Shown: positions 14,545-37,020, counted from the stretch's first letter. The stretch is 37,020 nucleotides of DNA from Verrucomicrobiota bacterium (GCA_947476875.1 CANJSG010000013.1:1-37020), one strand, 5' to 3'. Program-made: numbers and translations. Notes: a model not told the origin generated them from the sequence alone.

Positions 14545-16206
14545 TCAATCGGCGGACGGATAGGCCGCGATCTGCCGGCTGGTTTCGCGCCACGTGCGCC
14601 AGAGCGAGCCGGGGCTCGACGGCCGATGGCCTCGGGCGCGATTGGCCGCGCCGATGGCGAAGACCAGGCTCCATTGACGGAAAAGGGTGCGATAGGCGGA
14701 GACGAGGGTGTTCCGGGCGTCGTAGATGTTCGTGGCTTCGGCGGCGGCTCCGTTGAGTTCAAGGATCTGGAATCCTCGACCGGCCTTCAGCTCCTCTTCG
14801 GACGAATAGCGCACGTCGTAGCGGCCGATGAAAAATCCATCGATCCGCCGGGAGATTTCATCGATGCGCGCCGTCAGTTCCGGCGTGGCGAGCCGGTGTC
14901 CGTCGAGAAAGATGCAGCCTTGGGCGTGGTTGCCGGCCTCGACGAGGCGAAGCTGTTCATCCGCGGCGAGGACTTCGTCGCGGCGTTTTTCGAAACGCTC
15001 GAGATACTTGGCGGCCATGCAGCGGGCCCGTTCGTCCTGCCAGATGAGTTCCTCGACGGTGTGAACGCCGTCGCCGGTGAGCATGGGAAACACCTTCTCC
15101 GTGATGGCGAAGATCGCGCCACGGGCCTGATCGGGGAAGCGGTAGTAAAACACGCCCGCTTCGAACGGTCCCGGCACGTAGCGCTGGAGGACCAGCGCGG
15201 TCGGAGATGTTTCCAAGCAGGCGGTGGCTTCGGCGTCGGAGCGGATGAGTTTCACGCCGACTCCCCGTTGGCCAATGTCGGGCTTGAGGATGAAAGGAAG
15301 CTCGACGGAATGGCGGGCCCGCAGTTGGGCCAGCGCCGACTGCTGGTCGACGAGTCCACCCGCGGGGATCAACCACCCCTCGGCGGTGAAGTCGGGGCTC
15401 GTTCGGTGCAGGTCCTGAAGCGTTGCGATCTTGGATTCCCCGACCATTCCACCGTGGTGGATTGAAGGGTTGGCGGCGCAGGGAACCGTGAACCCGCGAT
15501 GGCGAATCGACAGCTGGATGTAGCGAAGAACCACCGGTGCGTAGAACAACCAGGCGGGCCAGAATTCCCATCGCGTCCATCGGGTCGCGGAGGCCCGGAT
15601 TCGATTCCAGGAGAAGCCGCTCACGGCGCGCAGGAGGATCCGGATCAATACGACGAGTCCGACCACGATGATCAGCCCGACCCAGACCGTGTTGCCCCGG
15701 CCTTTTACGGCTGCGCCGATCGAGGCACCGAAGCAATGGATCAACGAGAAGATGGCCGCCGTCCAGAACATGACCGTGACTCCGGTGATGGCCAGGAACC
15801 GCCCGAACGGCAGTCGGAGAAATCCCGCCGCCAGATAGGTCGGCAGGCGTGTTCCGGGCACGAAGCGACTTGTCACCAGCAGCCACGAGCCACGTGATTC
15901 AAACCAAGCTTCGCTGCGTTTCACCGAGTCGGAACTGACGAAACGGCGGGCGAGTTTGCTGTCGAGCAAGGGCCGCCCGATGCCACGCGCTGTGAGGTAG
16001 AGCAGTGCGTCGCCAAGCCAGATTCCAAGGAAGCACCCCAGCCAACCGGTCTGCCAGCTGATCACGCCGGTCACCGCCAACAAAGCCGCACCGATGGTCG
16101 GCACGTCCTCCTGAACCAGCGTCGAAACGGCCAAGGTCGTCGCTTGGGTCCATGGAAGCCACTCGGCGAAGCCGGGGGGAACCCATTGGGTGAAGGTGGT
16201 GTCCAT
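14545..16206 (-). CDS. DedA-family (VTT) membrane domain fused to a C-terminal ATP-grasp-like domain
   Basis: N-terminal half DVPTIGAALLAVTG...GIWLGDALLYLTARGIG...VPGTRLPTYLAAGFLRLPFGRFLAITG is DedA-like; C-terminal half PFILKPDIGQRGVGVKLI...LQRYVPGPFEAGVFYYR...GFQILELNGAAAEAT is ATP-grasp-like. Confidence 0.85.
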   Translation of the reverse strand: MDTTFTQWVPPGFAEWLPWTQATTLAVSTLVQEDVPTIGAALLAVTGVISWQTGWLGCFLGIWLGDALLYLTARGIGRPLLDSKLARRFVSSDSVKRSEAWFESRGSWLLVTSRFVPGTRLPTYLAAGFLRLPFGRFLAITGVTVMFWTAAIFSLIHCFGASIGAAVKGRGNTVWVGLIIVVGLVVLIRILLRAVSGFSWNRIRASATRWTRWEFWPAWLFYAPVVLRYIQLSIRHRGFTVPCAANPSIHHGGMVGESKIATLQDLHRTSPDFTAEGWLIPAGGLVDQQSALAQLRARHSVELPFILKPDIGQRGVGVKLIRSDAEATACLETSPTALVLQRYVPGPFEAGVFYYRFPDQARGAIFAITEKVFPMLTGDGVHTVEELIWQDERARCMAAKYLERFEKRRDEVLAADEQLRLVEAGNHAQGCIFLDGHRLATPELTARIDEISRRIDGFFIGRYDVRYSSEEELKAGRGFQILELNGAAAEATNIYDARNTLVSAYRTLFRQWSLVFAIGAANRARGHRPSSPGSLWRTWRETSRQIAAYPSAD

Positions 16207-16220
16207 GGCCCTTGGTCGGA

Positions 16221-16820
16221 TCAGCGGCTGCCGGTGGACTGAAGGTGGGCGACGGTCGACGGAGCGACACCAAACGCGGGTGGTAGCGGGACTTCGAGGA
16301 TGCGGGCCATGACCGAGATGAGCGCGTAGTGGTGGATCGCATGGCCGATCACGTAGACGAGTTCGCGGCCGAGCGAAGACTTGGACAAAGGAGAGTCGCC
16401 AGGTTCGTAGCTGACTTCGCAGCGTGCGATCATAGGGGTCCACAAGGCGGAAGGCTCCAAGCATTCGATGCCGGCCCGGATACGGCGGGTGAGCGCGAGG
16501 GCGAAATCGACCTGCGTTTCCAATCGGGAATCCCGCTGGCGGTGATCGTAGTCGACGAGGGCGCCGTCGAGGCCGGCCAGAAGGCTGGTGAAATGATCCA
16601 GACAGTGCCGGTAGTGGCCGCCGATGGAGGCGTTGAAGGCGACGGGAACCTTCTGGACGAAGGCTCCTGGCGGAAGCGAGGCCAGCAGAAGTTCACCTTG
16701 GCGCAGGATTTCCGCCGCAGCCGCGAGAATCCGCTCGGAGTCGGACTGGGAAGAGCCGTCAATGGCGGTTACGGCGGCAACTGAGCGAACGGCAGTGGTC
16801 AGGACCTGGGATTGATTCAT
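16221..16820 (-). CDS. DinB-like superfamily protein
   Basis: SIGGHYRHCLDHFTSLL...VIGHAIHHYALISVMARILEVPLPPAFGVAPSTVAHL; His positions typical of DinB-like bundles. Confidence 0.7.
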   Translation of the reverse strand: MNQSQVLTTAVRSVAAVTAIDGSSQSDSERILAAAAEILRQGELLLASLPPGAFVQKVPVAFNASIGGHYRHCLDHFTSLLAGLDGALVDYDHRQRDSRLETQVDFALALTRRIRAGIECLEPSALWTPMIARCEVSYEPGDSPLSKSSLGRELVYVIGHAIHHYALISVMARILEVPLPPAFGVAPSTVAHLQSTGSR

Positions 16821-19443: not shown

Positions 19444-19533
19444 TTTTGAGGAGCGGCACTTGTGATTCCGTGCCAGCAGGGATGAGTGGGAGATCGTAGA
19501 GAAACCTTACAGGGAGAGATCAGGCGGCGAATT

Positions 19534-19637
19534 GAACCGGAACGATTCCGGGGGAAATGCGGCTGCGGAGCGACTGCTTCAAGGCAGGGCAGCGCATCTT
19601 GCCTGCCCAAGACACTCCCGCCCTGCCTTCAACTGCG
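19534..19637 (+). repeat. interspersed repeat, copy A
   Basis: GAACCGGAAC-(15 nt)-GCGGCTGCGGAGCGACTGCTTCAAGGCAGGGCAGCGCATCTTGCCTGCCCAAGACACTCCCG; same layout and spacing as copy B at 32600. Confidence 0.75.
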
Positions 19638-19802
19638 TGGTCCCGGCTGAAGCACCAGTGCACGGGTCGACTGGCTCGCCCGTCCTTGTTGACGAAGCGA
19701 CACGGCTGCTCCGGGGAGCCTCGGTCGTCCACGGAAATGTCCGGATCCGGTTCGCCGGTGCCGCTGCAAGCCGCAGGTGGTTGGATGCCGTGATGCGGGC
19801 GG

Positions 19803-33165: not shown

Positions 33166-33252
33166 AACGTCTGTGCCATTCCTCGGCCCAGACTCTCTTT
33201 CCTCCCGGTTCAGTTTGGCGAGGTCAGATCACTGTAAGTCCTTGATTGAAAA

Positions 33253-33297
33253 TGGAGCCAGTTGTCGGGATTGAACCGACGACCCACGCTTTACGAA
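33253..33297 (-). tRNA. partial tRNA-Thr(CGT): 3' part only, from anticodon loop to CCA; putative attachment-site remnant
   Basis: Minus strand TTCGTAA-AGCGT-GGGTC-GTCGG-TTCAATC-CCGAC-AACTGGC-T-CCA fits anticodon loop, 3' anticodon stem, variable loop, T arm, 3' acceptor, discriminator and CCA; upstream sequence cannot form the 5' half. Confidence 0.8.
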
Positions 33298-33469
33298 CTT
33301 GTTTTACGCGAAAACCGCACCTCGTCCTTAATTTTTATCAATGTAACTGTTTGATGTTGAGGACTCCAGTGTCCACGGGCCAGCAGGCGATTTTTTTCTA
33401 CCTCTCAATAAGTGCCTGCAAACAAATAAAAATATAAGCGTTCTTGGCAGAATTTGGCAGAACACGTGA

Positions 33470-34129
33470 CTAGCTCGCCAATGTCGTCAGATTCTTGACC
33501 GCTTGAGCACTCCACTTCTCGGAACCGTAGGCCGTCGCAATGCCGCGAGCTGATAGCGCCTTGGCAATTCCCGACAGCGAAGAGACGCCAGCGGCCTTGA
33601 TCTGATCAACGATTGGCAACACTCGCGTTCGGAACAACGCAGCCTGTGCCCGTTTGGCTTCAGATGAACGCAGTCGTGCGTCCGATAAATTGGGATTTCC
33701 AAGACGCTGGCCGCGAGACTTTGCAGCTCTTAATGCCGCTTTGGTGCGGGAGGAAATCTGTTCCCGTTCAAACTGCGCAAACGCAACGAGCAGGTGGATC
33801 ATCAGCGGCGTTGCGTGGGGGTTATCAGCAGCAACGAAGTCTGTGCCGGATTTCTGGAGCTGACAGACGAAAAACAAGTCTCGGGTCAACCGATCCAGCT
33901 TCGCGACGAGCAGCGTGTGATTCCCCTTGCGGCAAAGCTCAAGGGCCTCTGCCAAAACGGGACGATCTCCATTCTTACCTGACTCGACCTCCACCATTTC
34001 ACGGACTACCACCGATTCACCCTGAGTCTTCAGGAACGAGGAAACGGCAGTTCGTTGCGCTTCGATTCCAAGCCCTTCAATTCCCTGAAGGCTCGTCGAG
34101 ACGCGTAGATAGGTGACAAACGATTTCAC
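33470..34129 (-). CDS. serine recombinase, small resolvase/invertase family
   Basis: FVTYLRVSTSLQGIEGLGIEAQR, LLVAKLDRLTRDL, LLVAFAQFEREQISSRTKAALRAAKSRGQRLGNP, C-terminal helix-turn-helix-like GIAKALSARGIATAYGSEKWSAQAVKNL. Confidence 0.93.
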   Translation of the reverse strand: MKSFVTYLRVSTSLQGIEGLGIEAQRTAVSSFLKTQGESVVVREMVEVESGKNGDRPVLAEALELCRKGNHTLLVAKLDRLTRDLFFVCQLQKSGTDFVAADNPHATPLMIHLLVAFAQFEREQISSRTKAALRAAKSRGQRLGNPNLSDARLRSSEAKRAQAALFRTRVLPIVDQIKAAGVSSLSGIAKALSARGIATAYGSEKWSAQAVKNLTTLAS

Positions 34130-34156
34130 GCCGCCAGCATTCGGTATCGTTAACTT

Positions 34157-34258
34157 TTAGGCGAGAACAATTTTTCAAATTCCTAAACGAGCGTTTGTGA
34201 ACTTGAAATCACCCTGCCCGTTTGAAGCCAAATAAACATATGCAGGGAAATCGCCTAA
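34157..34258. promoter_or_regulatory. AT-rich intergenic region with nested inverted repeats, between divergent recombinase and HUH-like genes
   Basis: TTAGGCGA at 34157-34164 and its complement TCGCCTAA at 34251-34258; AAACG-AG-CGTTT; CCCTGC at 34212 with GCAGGG at 34242. Confidence 0.5.
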
Positions 34259-34451
34259 GCACGAATGGAACCAAAGGAACTCTATTCTCCTCTCTATAAG
34301 CTACTTCCAGCGTTTTCTGCCCGACAAATCAGAATCACAGACGCTTTCACTGGCCGACTTCTACTTATTCTTTGGTGCCACTCGGGTTATCCGAGCGATA
34401 AGCGGCACGAAGGTCCGGCTGGTTCTGGATACTTCTTTGGAGAAATTGACC

Positions 34452-34979
34452 ATGATATTAGAAAAATCAAAACACCTAGATGAACTTGAATATGTCTTAT
34501 TACCATCCATTTCAGAGATTCAATGGCTCTTTCATGTATCGTTAACCTACCACTACTCACCAAAGGATGAATTCCTAGTGGAGAAGGATGTTTTGGAATA
34601 TCTGACCCAAGTCGGGGACAAGGTTCACCGGAAGAAAAAAGAAATGCATTGGTTCTTCCGGGTGGAGGAACACGAATCAAAAAGACTTCATGTCCATCTC
34701 CTCATGGGTGCCAGATTCCTGCTTGAAAATGACATTATCCGATGGAGGACGGTAGGAGGGAAGCAAGTCGAGTTGGGCAGATTTCTGGCGTCATCTTGGA
34801 AGAAGGGGATGGCAACGGCAGTCGAGTTCATTCCCTACCATTTGGAGTATGTCACCAAGCGTTCCGGATTGATCCAACACTGCGGATGGTCAAAAGCCGT
34901 CAGGCAATCTGTCCGACGGGGCGAAGAATATAAGAAAGCTCAAGTAGTTAAAATATCTCGAAATGGGACAGAACTATGA
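34452..34979 (+). CDS. small HUH-endonuclease/Rep-like protein
   Basis: Motif I-like WLFHVSLTY, HUH motif RLHVHLLM, YxxK motif YHLEYVTK in correct order; ATG 34452 preceded by GGAG at about 9 nt; frame is open upstream to 34236. Confidence 0.65.
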   Translation: MILEKSKHLDELEYVLLPSISEIQWLFHVSLTYHYSPKDEFLVEKDVLEYLTQVGDKVHRKKKEMHWFFRVEEHESKRLHVHLLMGARFLLENDIIRWRTVGGKQVELGRFLASSWKKGMATAVEFIPYHLEYVTKRSGLIQHCGWSKAVRQSVRRGEEYKKAQVVKISRNGTEL

Positions 34980-34993
34980 TAAGATGGTCAACA

Positions 34994-35013
34994 GTTAGGC
35001 AATTACGCCTAAC
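34994..35013. repeat. perfect inverted repeat GTTAGGC-AATTAC-GCCTAAC
   Basis: 7-bp arms, 6-nt spacer, 15 nt after the HUH-like gene stop. Confidence 0.8.
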
Positions 35014-35030
35014 ATTAATTACTAACCTAT

Positions 35031-35303
35031 ATGTATCGAAAAAAAAGTACACCAACAAATCAACTCTCTACTGAAGAGCTAAATCTAATCCGTAAAAAAA
35101 GAATACAATATGAGCTGAATGAGGGTCTCGCTAACCTGAAGGAAAAACATCGCGCGGCAATCGAGGACTGGCACGGCCGCAGCTCGTTGCGTAAAGACGT
35201 CGAGGACCAAAGTGAAATCGACGATGGTTACGCCGAGGAATGCGCCGAACTCCGGAAAACGGCGAAACGGATCGAAAACAGGGAAGACGAGGTGGACGGA
35301 TGA
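35031..35303 (+). CDS. small charged orphan protein (90 aa)
   Basis: ORF MYRKKSTPTNQLSTEELNLIRKKRIQYELNEGLANLKEKHR...; stop overlaps the next ATG. Confidence 0.55.
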   Translation: MYRKKSTPTNQLSTEELNLIRKKRIQYELNEGLANLKEKHRAAIEDWHGRSSLRKDVEDQSEIDDGYAEECAELRKTAKRIENREDEVDG

Positions 35304-35554
35304 AATTGAATTCACCGTTGTCACCCGAGGAACTGTCGAAGCTCTGCAAGGCCCTGGAATACTCGGCCGAACGTCTAGCCCGATTCTTTGAGCAAGGGGT
35401 GTTGCTTGCAGAATCGCTCGAAGACGAGGAACTCGCGAGTTCGCGACGAAAGATCGCTGACTACCAAGGGAAAATTAGGCGCGAGCGCGAGCGTATTGGC
35501 CGCATACAAAACATCATTCGTCGAAAGAGGGAGAACGAGCGCAACCGACGCTAA
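35300..35554 (+). CDS. small charged/coiled-coil orphan protein (84 aa)
   Basis: ATGA overlap with the upstream ORF; MKLNSPLSPEELSKLCKALEYSAERLARFFEQGVLL... Confidence 0.55.
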   Translation: MKLNSPLSPEELSKLCKALEYSAERLARFFEQGVLLAESLEDEELASSRRKIADYQGKIRRERERIGRIQNIIRRKRENERNRR

Positions 35555-35582
35555 ACTTCTGAATATGAGGCGATAAACGCAA

Positions 35583-35636
35583 GGCGAAGGGCATGAGAGG
35601 TATTCCGCACACACGGAACCTCTCATGCCCTTCGCC
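35583..35636. repeat. long near-perfect hairpin
   Basis: GGCGAAGGGCATGAGAGG (35583-35600) pairs perfectly with CCTCTCATGCCCTTCGCC (35619-35636); inner TTCCG/CGGAA with a 2-nt bulge and loop CACACA. Confidence 0.92.
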
Positions 35637-35640
35637 GTAA

Positions 35641-35654
35641 CATATGCGCATATG
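35641..35654. repeat. 14-bp perfect palindrome CATATGCGCATATG
   Basis: Direct reading, 4 nt after the hairpin. Confidence 0.9.
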
Positions 35655-35753
35655 CCCAAACGTCGGCTTCCCACCAAGCCGGTCTGCGAATATGACATTT
35701 TGGTGGTTGGAACTGAAAAGAACGGCCAACCAATTAAGTGACTGAGAATCCGG

Positions 35754-36449
35754 TCACTTCTCGTTCGCTTTGAGGTATTCGTTTGAGAACTTCACCACTT
35801 GGCCAGCTACAGAATCCTTGAGGAATTGTTTACCACCTGCTTTGGTGATCTTACCAAACGATCCATGATCCCAAGTATGGGCATATGACGTCACAATTTC
35901 TGCCTTTCTCCAATAAGTAACCACTTCCGATACGAACGTGGATATAGTGAAGGTCGCAAAGTTTTTGTCTTTGTCCCAGAGCGCGTCTATTTCGATGACC
36001 AGACGGTGGGCCGCTTTAGGGTCAATACGTATTGAGCTTCTGCGGAGCTCAAGTTCGACGTTATCCCTGATATCCGCTTCAGTCAGCACGCCCTCCAAGT
36101 CCGAGAGATAGATTTCCAATGCGACACGTTCCACGCCAGCAAGCGAGGCGTAACTGGTAACGAATTTGGCTGCACGGACTTTGTCTGCGAACAGTTTTGC
36201 CGTAACGTAGTCTTCAGGAATTGCTGCCGGAACTTCTTTGACCACCTCGACCGGCACTCTGACCAAGTTGGTCTTCCAGACCTCGACCGGCTTGTCCACC
36301 AAGACAGTGACCGTGTTGGTTTTGGTGACTTCGACAATCTTGTCGACGTATCGAGGCTCAACCTTCCCTGAAGATTTTCCCGCAAAGTAGGCGGTCACAG
36401 CTACCGCGATCCAAACAACGGTCGTCGTAATCAGCACGTTGGTTTTCAT
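35754..36449 (-). CDS. membrane-anchored orphan protein with extended V/K/T/P-rich stalk
   Basis: MKTNVLITTTVVWIAVAVTAYFAGKSSG (TM anchor), then VDKIVEVTKTNTVTVLVDKPVEVWKTNLVRVPVEVVKEVP, then a globular C-terminal region. Confidence 0.6.
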   Translation of the reverse strand: MKTNVLITTTVVWIAVAVTAYFAGKSSGKVEPRYVDKIVEVTKTNTVTVLVDKPVEVWKTNLVRVPVEVVKEVPAAIPEDYVTAKLFADKVRAAKFVTSYASLAGVERVALEIYLSDLEGVLTEADIRDNVELELRRSSIRIDPKAAHRLVIEIDALWDKDKNFATFTISTFVSEVVTYWRKAEIVTSYAHTWDHGSFGKITKAGGKQFLKDSVAGQVVKFSNEYLKANEK

Positions 36450-36703
36450 ATTGAGATCATCGCTCGCGGCTTCCCTCGGAAATTCTTAGACCCGTAATGC
36501 ATTCATTTCAAGAACGCATCGGCCGATAGAACCGCTCCAACTCCGGCCCAGGGTTCACGACTGGATTTCAAAATAGACTTTCAAAAAATACACAACAAGT
36601 TGTGCAGCAACAACTTAACGATTAGCGTGGCACGGTCGATGCTTGAATATGGGGCAGTGAAGGGGAAACGGAAACATCCCCATACATCAACAAAGGACCG
36701 CCA

Positions 36704-36955
36704 ATGCATACGACTCCGCCGTTTGTTGGAAGACAGTTCCTTGATCTACTCGTGAACCTGCTTCCTGACCTGCTAGCTGGCCGAATCCCTAGCATAATGT
36801 TCAAAATAGATGACGCAGGGTTGAAGATTGAAGGCGACGCAAGTTTCGTCGCCTTCGTCTTCACAGTAGGCGTTCTGTTGTGGTTGTGGAGAAGGTCAAC
36901 CCTAGCAGCCCGTCAAAGAACGGGTGTTTTGGAGCGGCGTGACGGAGGCGTATGA
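36704..36955 (+). CDS. small single-TM orphan protein (83 aa)
   Basis: AGGA upstream of the ATG; TM segment ASFVAFVFTVGVLLWLW followed by basic residues; stop overlaps the next ATG at 36952. Confidence 0.5.
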   Translation: MHTTPPFVGRQFLDLLVNLLPDLLAGRIPSIMFKIDDAGLKIEGDASFVAFVFTVGVLLWLWRRSTLAARQRTGVLERRDGGV

Positions 36956-37020
36956 TGGCTTGGCCTGGGATGGTCCGGAGAAAGTTGTGGGAGAGCGGCG
37001 GACGAGACGGGCGACCAGGG
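36952..37020 (+). CDS. start of a further ORF, cut by the window end
   Basis: ATGA overlap with the 83-aa ORF; open to the window end (MMAWPGMVRRKLWESGGRDGRPG...). Confidence 0.35.
   Translation, partial: MMAWPGMVRRKLWESGGRDGRPG

Follow-up and report, generated by a model that had tools for sequence, protein, structure and literature searches.

What kind of element begins where a fragment of a tRNA-Thr gene precedes a stretch of lower G+C content near the right end of a contig from a Verrucomicrobiota bacterium (GCA_947476875.1, CANJSG010000013.1:1-37020)? The window, meaning the whole 37,020-nucleotide stretch analysed, is one entire contig (C13) of a genome assembled in 317 contigs and 85.5% complete, and because it is the whole contig, the mobile element in question is cut by the assembly at an insertion sequence (IS). 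We consider it likely that positions 33298-36901 make up the right-hand portion of a compact element integrated in tRNA-Thr(CGT), with its left part on another contig of the same genome (C57, 16605-19509), and that the whole is an integrating, plasmid-like rolling-circle replicon, a hitchhiker element. Integration at tRNA-Thr is well supported by the junction sequences, while replication and transfer are properties that we infer from protein families.

The two junctions carry the case for integration. A genome search with window positions 33230-37020 returned a perfect 64-bp copy of 33234-33297 at 16541-16604 of C57, where an intact tRNA-Thr(CGT) occupies 16511-16585; identity between the contigs begins in the anticodon loop and stops 19 nt beyond the tRNA. 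The 45-nt tRNA-Thr fragment reported in an initial annotation of the window is therefore present, but the shared repeat of 64 bp is longer, and the shift to AT-richer sequence that it described to the right of the fragment appears as a change from 60% G+C over 1-33233 to 49% over 33298-36904. Its own check of the proposed integrative element, a search for an intact tRNA-Thr(CGT), succeeded on C57, with an integrase gene beside the tRNA. Intact tRNA and displaced fragment share one orientation and stand on the two sides of an island whose ends lie on two contigs and are presumed adjacent, and the integrase gene (C57 16704-17864) lies within that island. As read from the sequence, the junction geometry is one that Islander (PMC4383910) catalogues: a tyrosine-integrase island with a predicted anticodon-loop crossover. 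Just inside each junction the 9-mer TTGGCAGAA occurs twice (at 16646 and 16667 on C57; Table 1 for the window), with 0 copies in the flanking chromosome (33 kb and 16.5 kb, about 50 kb), and this two-plus-two arrangement beside the junctions argues that both ends belong to one element. The repeats are best read as putative integrase arm sites; a 14-mer, CGTTCTTGGCAGAA, is also common to both element ends.

On C57, the integrase gene starts about 119 nt downstream of the tRNA-Thr 3' end and encodes a tyrosine-recombinase-like protein of 386 amino acids (aa), with profile matches to XerC/XerD (6e-9 to 8e-9) and a weak one to PF00589 (4e-4); it is followed by a gene for a DndB/DGQHR-type protein (PF14072, 6e-25). 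Among 313 genomes of the order, 51 (counting its own) have a homologue of the integrase at E 1e-20, and several of these homologues adjoin tRNA-Thr(CGT). The likely integrase is this tyrosine enzyme and not the serine recombinase that the initial annotation listed in the window.

The two halves are most simply joined through one IS copy, which probably separates them. The window from 36906 onward consists of one end of a multicopy IS that recurs at about 11 further contig ends, and C57 probably terminates in the opposite end of the same IS. The two IS end types, both beginning CAGCCCGTCAAA, gave 12 matches each, with 4-bp flanks (CTAG, TTAA or CTAA/TTAG) consistent with target duplications. 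C57 and the window share the flank CTAG, and of the IS ends with that flank that were examined, they alone lie in sequence of low G+C (0.52 and 0.50, respectively; others 0.58-0.65); on either side of the gap G+C is 0.49 (window) and 0.52 (C57), versus 0.60-0.64 outside. The element would then probably comprise 2.9 + 3.6 kb of native DNA (about 6.5 kb) plus the IS, about 8 kb in total. The small single-transmembrane (TM) protein "coupled to a further gene" of the initial annotation is not a native arrangement: the TM open reading frame (ORF; 36704-36955) enters IS-side sequence at 36902, and because it runs into the IS, its last ~18 codons and the "coupled" ATG are IS-derived. The IS itself, in about 12 copies (including window 36906-37020 and C57 (L009) 19511-19642), breaks the assembly at many contig ends and uses palindromic CTAG/TTAA-type 4-bp targets.

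Table 1. Features of the right half of the element and its borders in the window.
Feature	Coordinates	Strand	Basis
attR core: 3' fragment of tRNA-Thr (33253-33297) and the 19 nt that follow its 3' end	33234..33297	-	100% identity to C57 16541-16604
Two TTGGCAGAA repeats, putative integrase arm sites	33444..33462 (33444-33452, 33454-33462)	.	repeat search
Small serine recombinase, 219 aa, resolvase/invertase type	33470..34129	-	PF00239 7e-27; 46-49% identity to enzymes beside integrase in L098-L100
Single-Tyr HUH Rep-like protein, 175 aa; motifs SLTY, HVH, YVTK	34452..34979	+	PF23343 4e-7; alignment
Small charged protein smA, 90 aa; ATGA overlap with next gene	35031..35303	+	ORF call
Small charged coiled-coil-like protein smB, 84 aa; in relatives recurs beside site-specific recombinases	35300..35554	+	phmmer 9e-12 to L182
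54-nt near-perfect hairpin between two convergent genes	35583..35636	.	z about -10
N-terminally membrane-anchored stalked protein, 231 aa	35754..36449	-	ORF and profile searches
Remnant of single-TM protein gene, 3' end cut by IS	36704..36901	+	ORF and IS boundary
CTAG, putative target duplication of IS	36902..36905	.	IS boundary
End of multicopy IS, outside the mobile element	36906..37020	.	genome matches

The remaining components named in the initial annotation, namely the small serine recombinase, the divergently oriented HUH-like protein, the two translation-coupled small charged proteins, the 54-nt hairpin and the stalked membrane-anchored protein, were all recovered (Table 1). Central to the proposed mode of replication is the HUH protein, whose ORF opens at TTG 34437, with ATG 34452 as the more likely start. 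It scores 30.7 bits against PF23343, above the curated cut-off of 27.8, and carries both the HUH and the catalytic tyrosine motifs of a Rep family; across the family alignment LT[FY] and HxH are kept, and YxxK is present in most rows. PF23343 is named for ORF2/G2P replication proteins, those of microviruses and inoviruses. The profile, through which alone relatives of the protein were reached, recognises family members in 37 of the 313 order genomes, the window's among them. At 10 of 17 PF23343 loci a tyrosine integrase lies within 2.2 kb, and at 8 of those 10 a tRNA lies within 3 kb, in a non-random set of loci that were chosen mainly for short frames, with integrases disregarded except at L081 and possibly at loci of genomes already in the integrase search.

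The serine recombinase is, judging by its family, the probable resolvase of the element. As a marker for elements of this kind it was rejected, its family being widespread (119 loci in GTDB, 17 in IMG/VR), and the small viral contigs inspected that carry a related enzyme have different gene sets. Profile searches gave no family match for smA or for the stalked protein, the latter inferred to be cargo, and Rfam gave no match. The hairpin, which follows smB, lacks a T run and is single-copy in the genome; it is strong, and it was considered as a conserved origin and rejected, since it is not conserved at that place: of the relatives checked, L084 has one there, and that one is weaker.

Taken together, these protein families suggest a cycle in which the tyrosine integrase would release a circular form of the element, the single-Tyr HUH protein would nick one strand of that circle for rolling-circle replication or mobilisation, and the serine recombinase would resolve multimers or invert DNA; smA and smB may be accessory to replication, and the stalked and DndB-like proteins may be cargo. 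Because no packaging or secretion gene was seen, transfer would need a helper, which could be a conjugative element, a phage or a vesicle.

The same parts, recombined, occur in four complete tRNA-bounded relatives of 4.7-8.8 kb from the same phylum (L100, L099, L182 and L082). A small serine recombinase is present in all four, and those of L100, L099 and L182 are closely related to the window's. L100 (6.2 kb) lies between a tRNA-Thr and its 3' fragment and carries an integrase, together with a serine recombinase that shares 46-47% identity with the window's; L099 (8.8 kb) occupies the 5' side of tRNA-Thr, has a 43-nt duplicate of the tRNA 5' half as its boundary, and encodes a frameshifted integrase, a serine recombinase and smB; L182 (5.1 kb, at tRNA-Val) combines an integrase and a serine recombinase with coupled small proteins, smB among them. 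L082 (4.7 kb, at tRNA-Ala) repeats the window's gene layout: it has an integrase, a serine recombinase divergent from an HUH protein, and a small charged protein that is again coupled, as well as an HTH_17 protein. L092 (6.2 kb, with a 26-nt tRNA-Asn repeat, an integrase and an HUH protein) is a probable further complete element, the gene order HUH, smB, serine recombinase is repeated in L087 and L123, and at L101 two elements stand in tandem at tRNA-Thr.

Several of these loci also have features of their own. In L100 (8268-8342 versus 14547-14592) the tRNA-Thr 3' half supplied by the element differs from the displaced original, with compensating T-stem changes from TCGG/CCGA to CTGG/CCAG. In three relatives (L099 1924-1966, L182 4513-4551, L082 4955-4994) the boundary repeat duplicates the 5' half of the tRNA and not the 3' half, which suggests that the anticodon-loop site is usable in both orientations; the arrangement is rare in Islander, at 159 of 3919 islands (PMC4383910). 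A conserved protein of 260-295 aa recurs in L098 (694-1509), L099 (7152-7937) and L087 (8773-9657), with a weak DUF3102 similarity (L087, E 0.1, below cut-off).

An smB profile seeded with the window and three other loci matched 9 of 313 genomes of the order, the ninth match (G091) being weak at E 6e-4. The gene adjoins a serine recombinase in G206 and an integrase fragment and a polymerase-like protein in G276; in G227 its neighbours are a large serine integrase and a protein with a TIR domain (PF13676, 1e-7), and in G247 it lies at a contig end. At L228 (9467-10468) a TIR-domain protein (PF13676), possibly defence cargo, adjoins smB and a large serine integrase. The polymerase-like protein, of 380-430 aa, is encoded at L099 5313-6485, L100 11390-12529, L084 9096-10385 and L103 6886-8124; the L100 and L084 copies gave no Pfam match, and a search of the window's genome for the L099/L100 gene found none. 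The protein's motifs, such as "YFDVTACYPNLLPFW ... VPMYDGFL" and "ECDQRASQPF ... VHDCIGC", resemble motifs A and C of family-A polymerases, and it may serve for replication in elements that lack HUH.

Other explanations of the locus must be weighed against an integrating replicon. As a phage satellite, a type that the initial annotation also named, it would be a compact element of integrase, Rep and small genes packaged by a helper phage, in the manner of minimal satellites of the PICMI type; its size and content do resemble PICMIs (PMC10803314), and satellites carry defence genes, to which the TIR-domain gene beside smB in the relative L228 may be compared. No capsid-remodelling or packaging gene was found, however, queries with the HUH protein (window and L082 type), smB and the integrase returned no relative among IMG/VR viral contigs, and the HUH protein had none in phages, so we think a satellite unlikely. 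An integrative and mobilizable element, in which the HUH protein would act mainly as a relaxase and a resident conjugative system would move the DNA, seems to us an unlikely identity as well. HUH nucleases do act as relaxases, and Rep-type relaxases (MOBT) are found in mobilizable elements (PMC11389934), yet the profile match here is to a Rep (ORF2/G2P) and to no relaxase family, and neither an oriT nor a coupling protein was recognised, oriT having not been searched for and type IV secretion genes not searched genome-wide.

An inovirus or other single-stranded DNA phage provirus, towards which the initial annotation leaned, is very improbable: the name of PF23343 refers to ORF2/G2P replication proteins and there is one small single-TM ORF, but that ORF, an IS-truncated remnant, stands alone with no cluster of short one-TM coat proteins, no Zot match exists in the window's 85.5% complete genome, and the complete relatives L082, L182, L099 and L100 likewise showed no recognisable Zot- or coat-like gene. 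Rather improbable, too, is a decayed genomic island, in which unrelated genes would have accumulated at a tRNA hot spot without forming a functional unit. The inserted IS, the gene that it cuts and the decayed integrase copies at the tRNA-Thr of L099 would fit such decay, but the ORFs for the integrase, the recombinase and the HUH protein are unbroken and keep their catalytic motifs, and other families of the order have this set of genes too, at unrelated tRNA genes.

Several observations weigh against an integrating rolling-circle replicon. The junction between C57 and the window is unassembled, and a longer element or two nested elements are possible; no empty-site genome with the same flanks turned up, the nearest genomes for comparison being of the same order only and no empty-site search having been made. 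Assignment of the HUH protein depends on one profile match and three motifs, a single-sequence AlphaFold model was too poor to use (pLDDT 41), and a single-sequence search gave no close relative in IMG/VR, phages, plasmids, GTDB contigs or 320 genomes of the order. No nick site or origin was identified for it, and some relatives have the polymerase-like protein and no recognised HUH protein, which is thus not universal in the group.

Complete relatives within its order place the element in a recurring and apparently undescribed group, whose small members insert themselves and bring along a rolling-circle-type replication gene; a search of the open-access literature, with most subscription papers outside it, retrieved work on tRNA islands, PICMIs and small marine elements and mentions of tycheposons, and no description of the group. 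A wider proposition, possible but on balance doubtful in our estimate, is that of a distinct, undescribed superfamily of 5-9 kb tRNA-integrating elements in Verrucomicrobiota, with an exchangeable integrase, a replication slot (HUH Rep or polymerase-like), the conserved smB and a serine recombinase, which could approach the anticodon loop of a tRNA gene from either side and would spread as satellites or vesicle-borne circles. Small integrated elements with nothing beyond an integrase, a Rep and some orphan genes are of a type missed by annotation pipelines; with exact ends, complete relatives and a minimal HUH replication gene at hand, excision, rolling-circle replication and travel become directly testable.

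Among known systems, members of the REP_ORF2-G2P family (PF23343; microvirus ORF2, inovirus G2P) share the HUH domain and the LT[FY], HxH and YxxK motifs, whereas the window's protein has no close sequence relative and sits in an integrase-bearing element without recognised virion genes. Integrative and mobilizable elements with Rep-type relaxases likewise combine an integrase and an HUH/Rep protein in a small integrated element, although here no relaxase family or coupling protein was recognised, oriT not having been searched for. Tycheposons, which are tRNA-associated, and VEIMEs resemble this element, when compared by description only, as chromosomal islands with an integrase and cargo, and the known ones differ from it in host and core genes. 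Both are named alongside PICMIs (PMC10803314), which are 6.1 kb long, lie at fis in Vibrionaceae, carry an integrase, a regulator and a replication protein but no capsid genes, and use AlpA and a DUF3987-type primase. The present element is similar in its ~6 kb, its integrase, regulator and replication protein and its want of capsid genes, but its group differs in its tRNA sites, its HUH Rep or polymerase-like protein, its serine recombinase, its Verrucomicrobiota hosts and the absence of any known helper. The closest parallel in architecture is with the tDNA islands of Islander (PMC4383910), with an intact tRNA and a displaced fragment, an integrase beside the tRNA, and a crossover at the anticodon loop (sub-site A); in most of these islands, unlike the complete relatives L082, L099 and L182, the tRNA 5' half is not carried by the element. 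Within tRNA-integrated islands, the element is set apart by its very small size, its own HUH Rep, smB and its serine recombinase.

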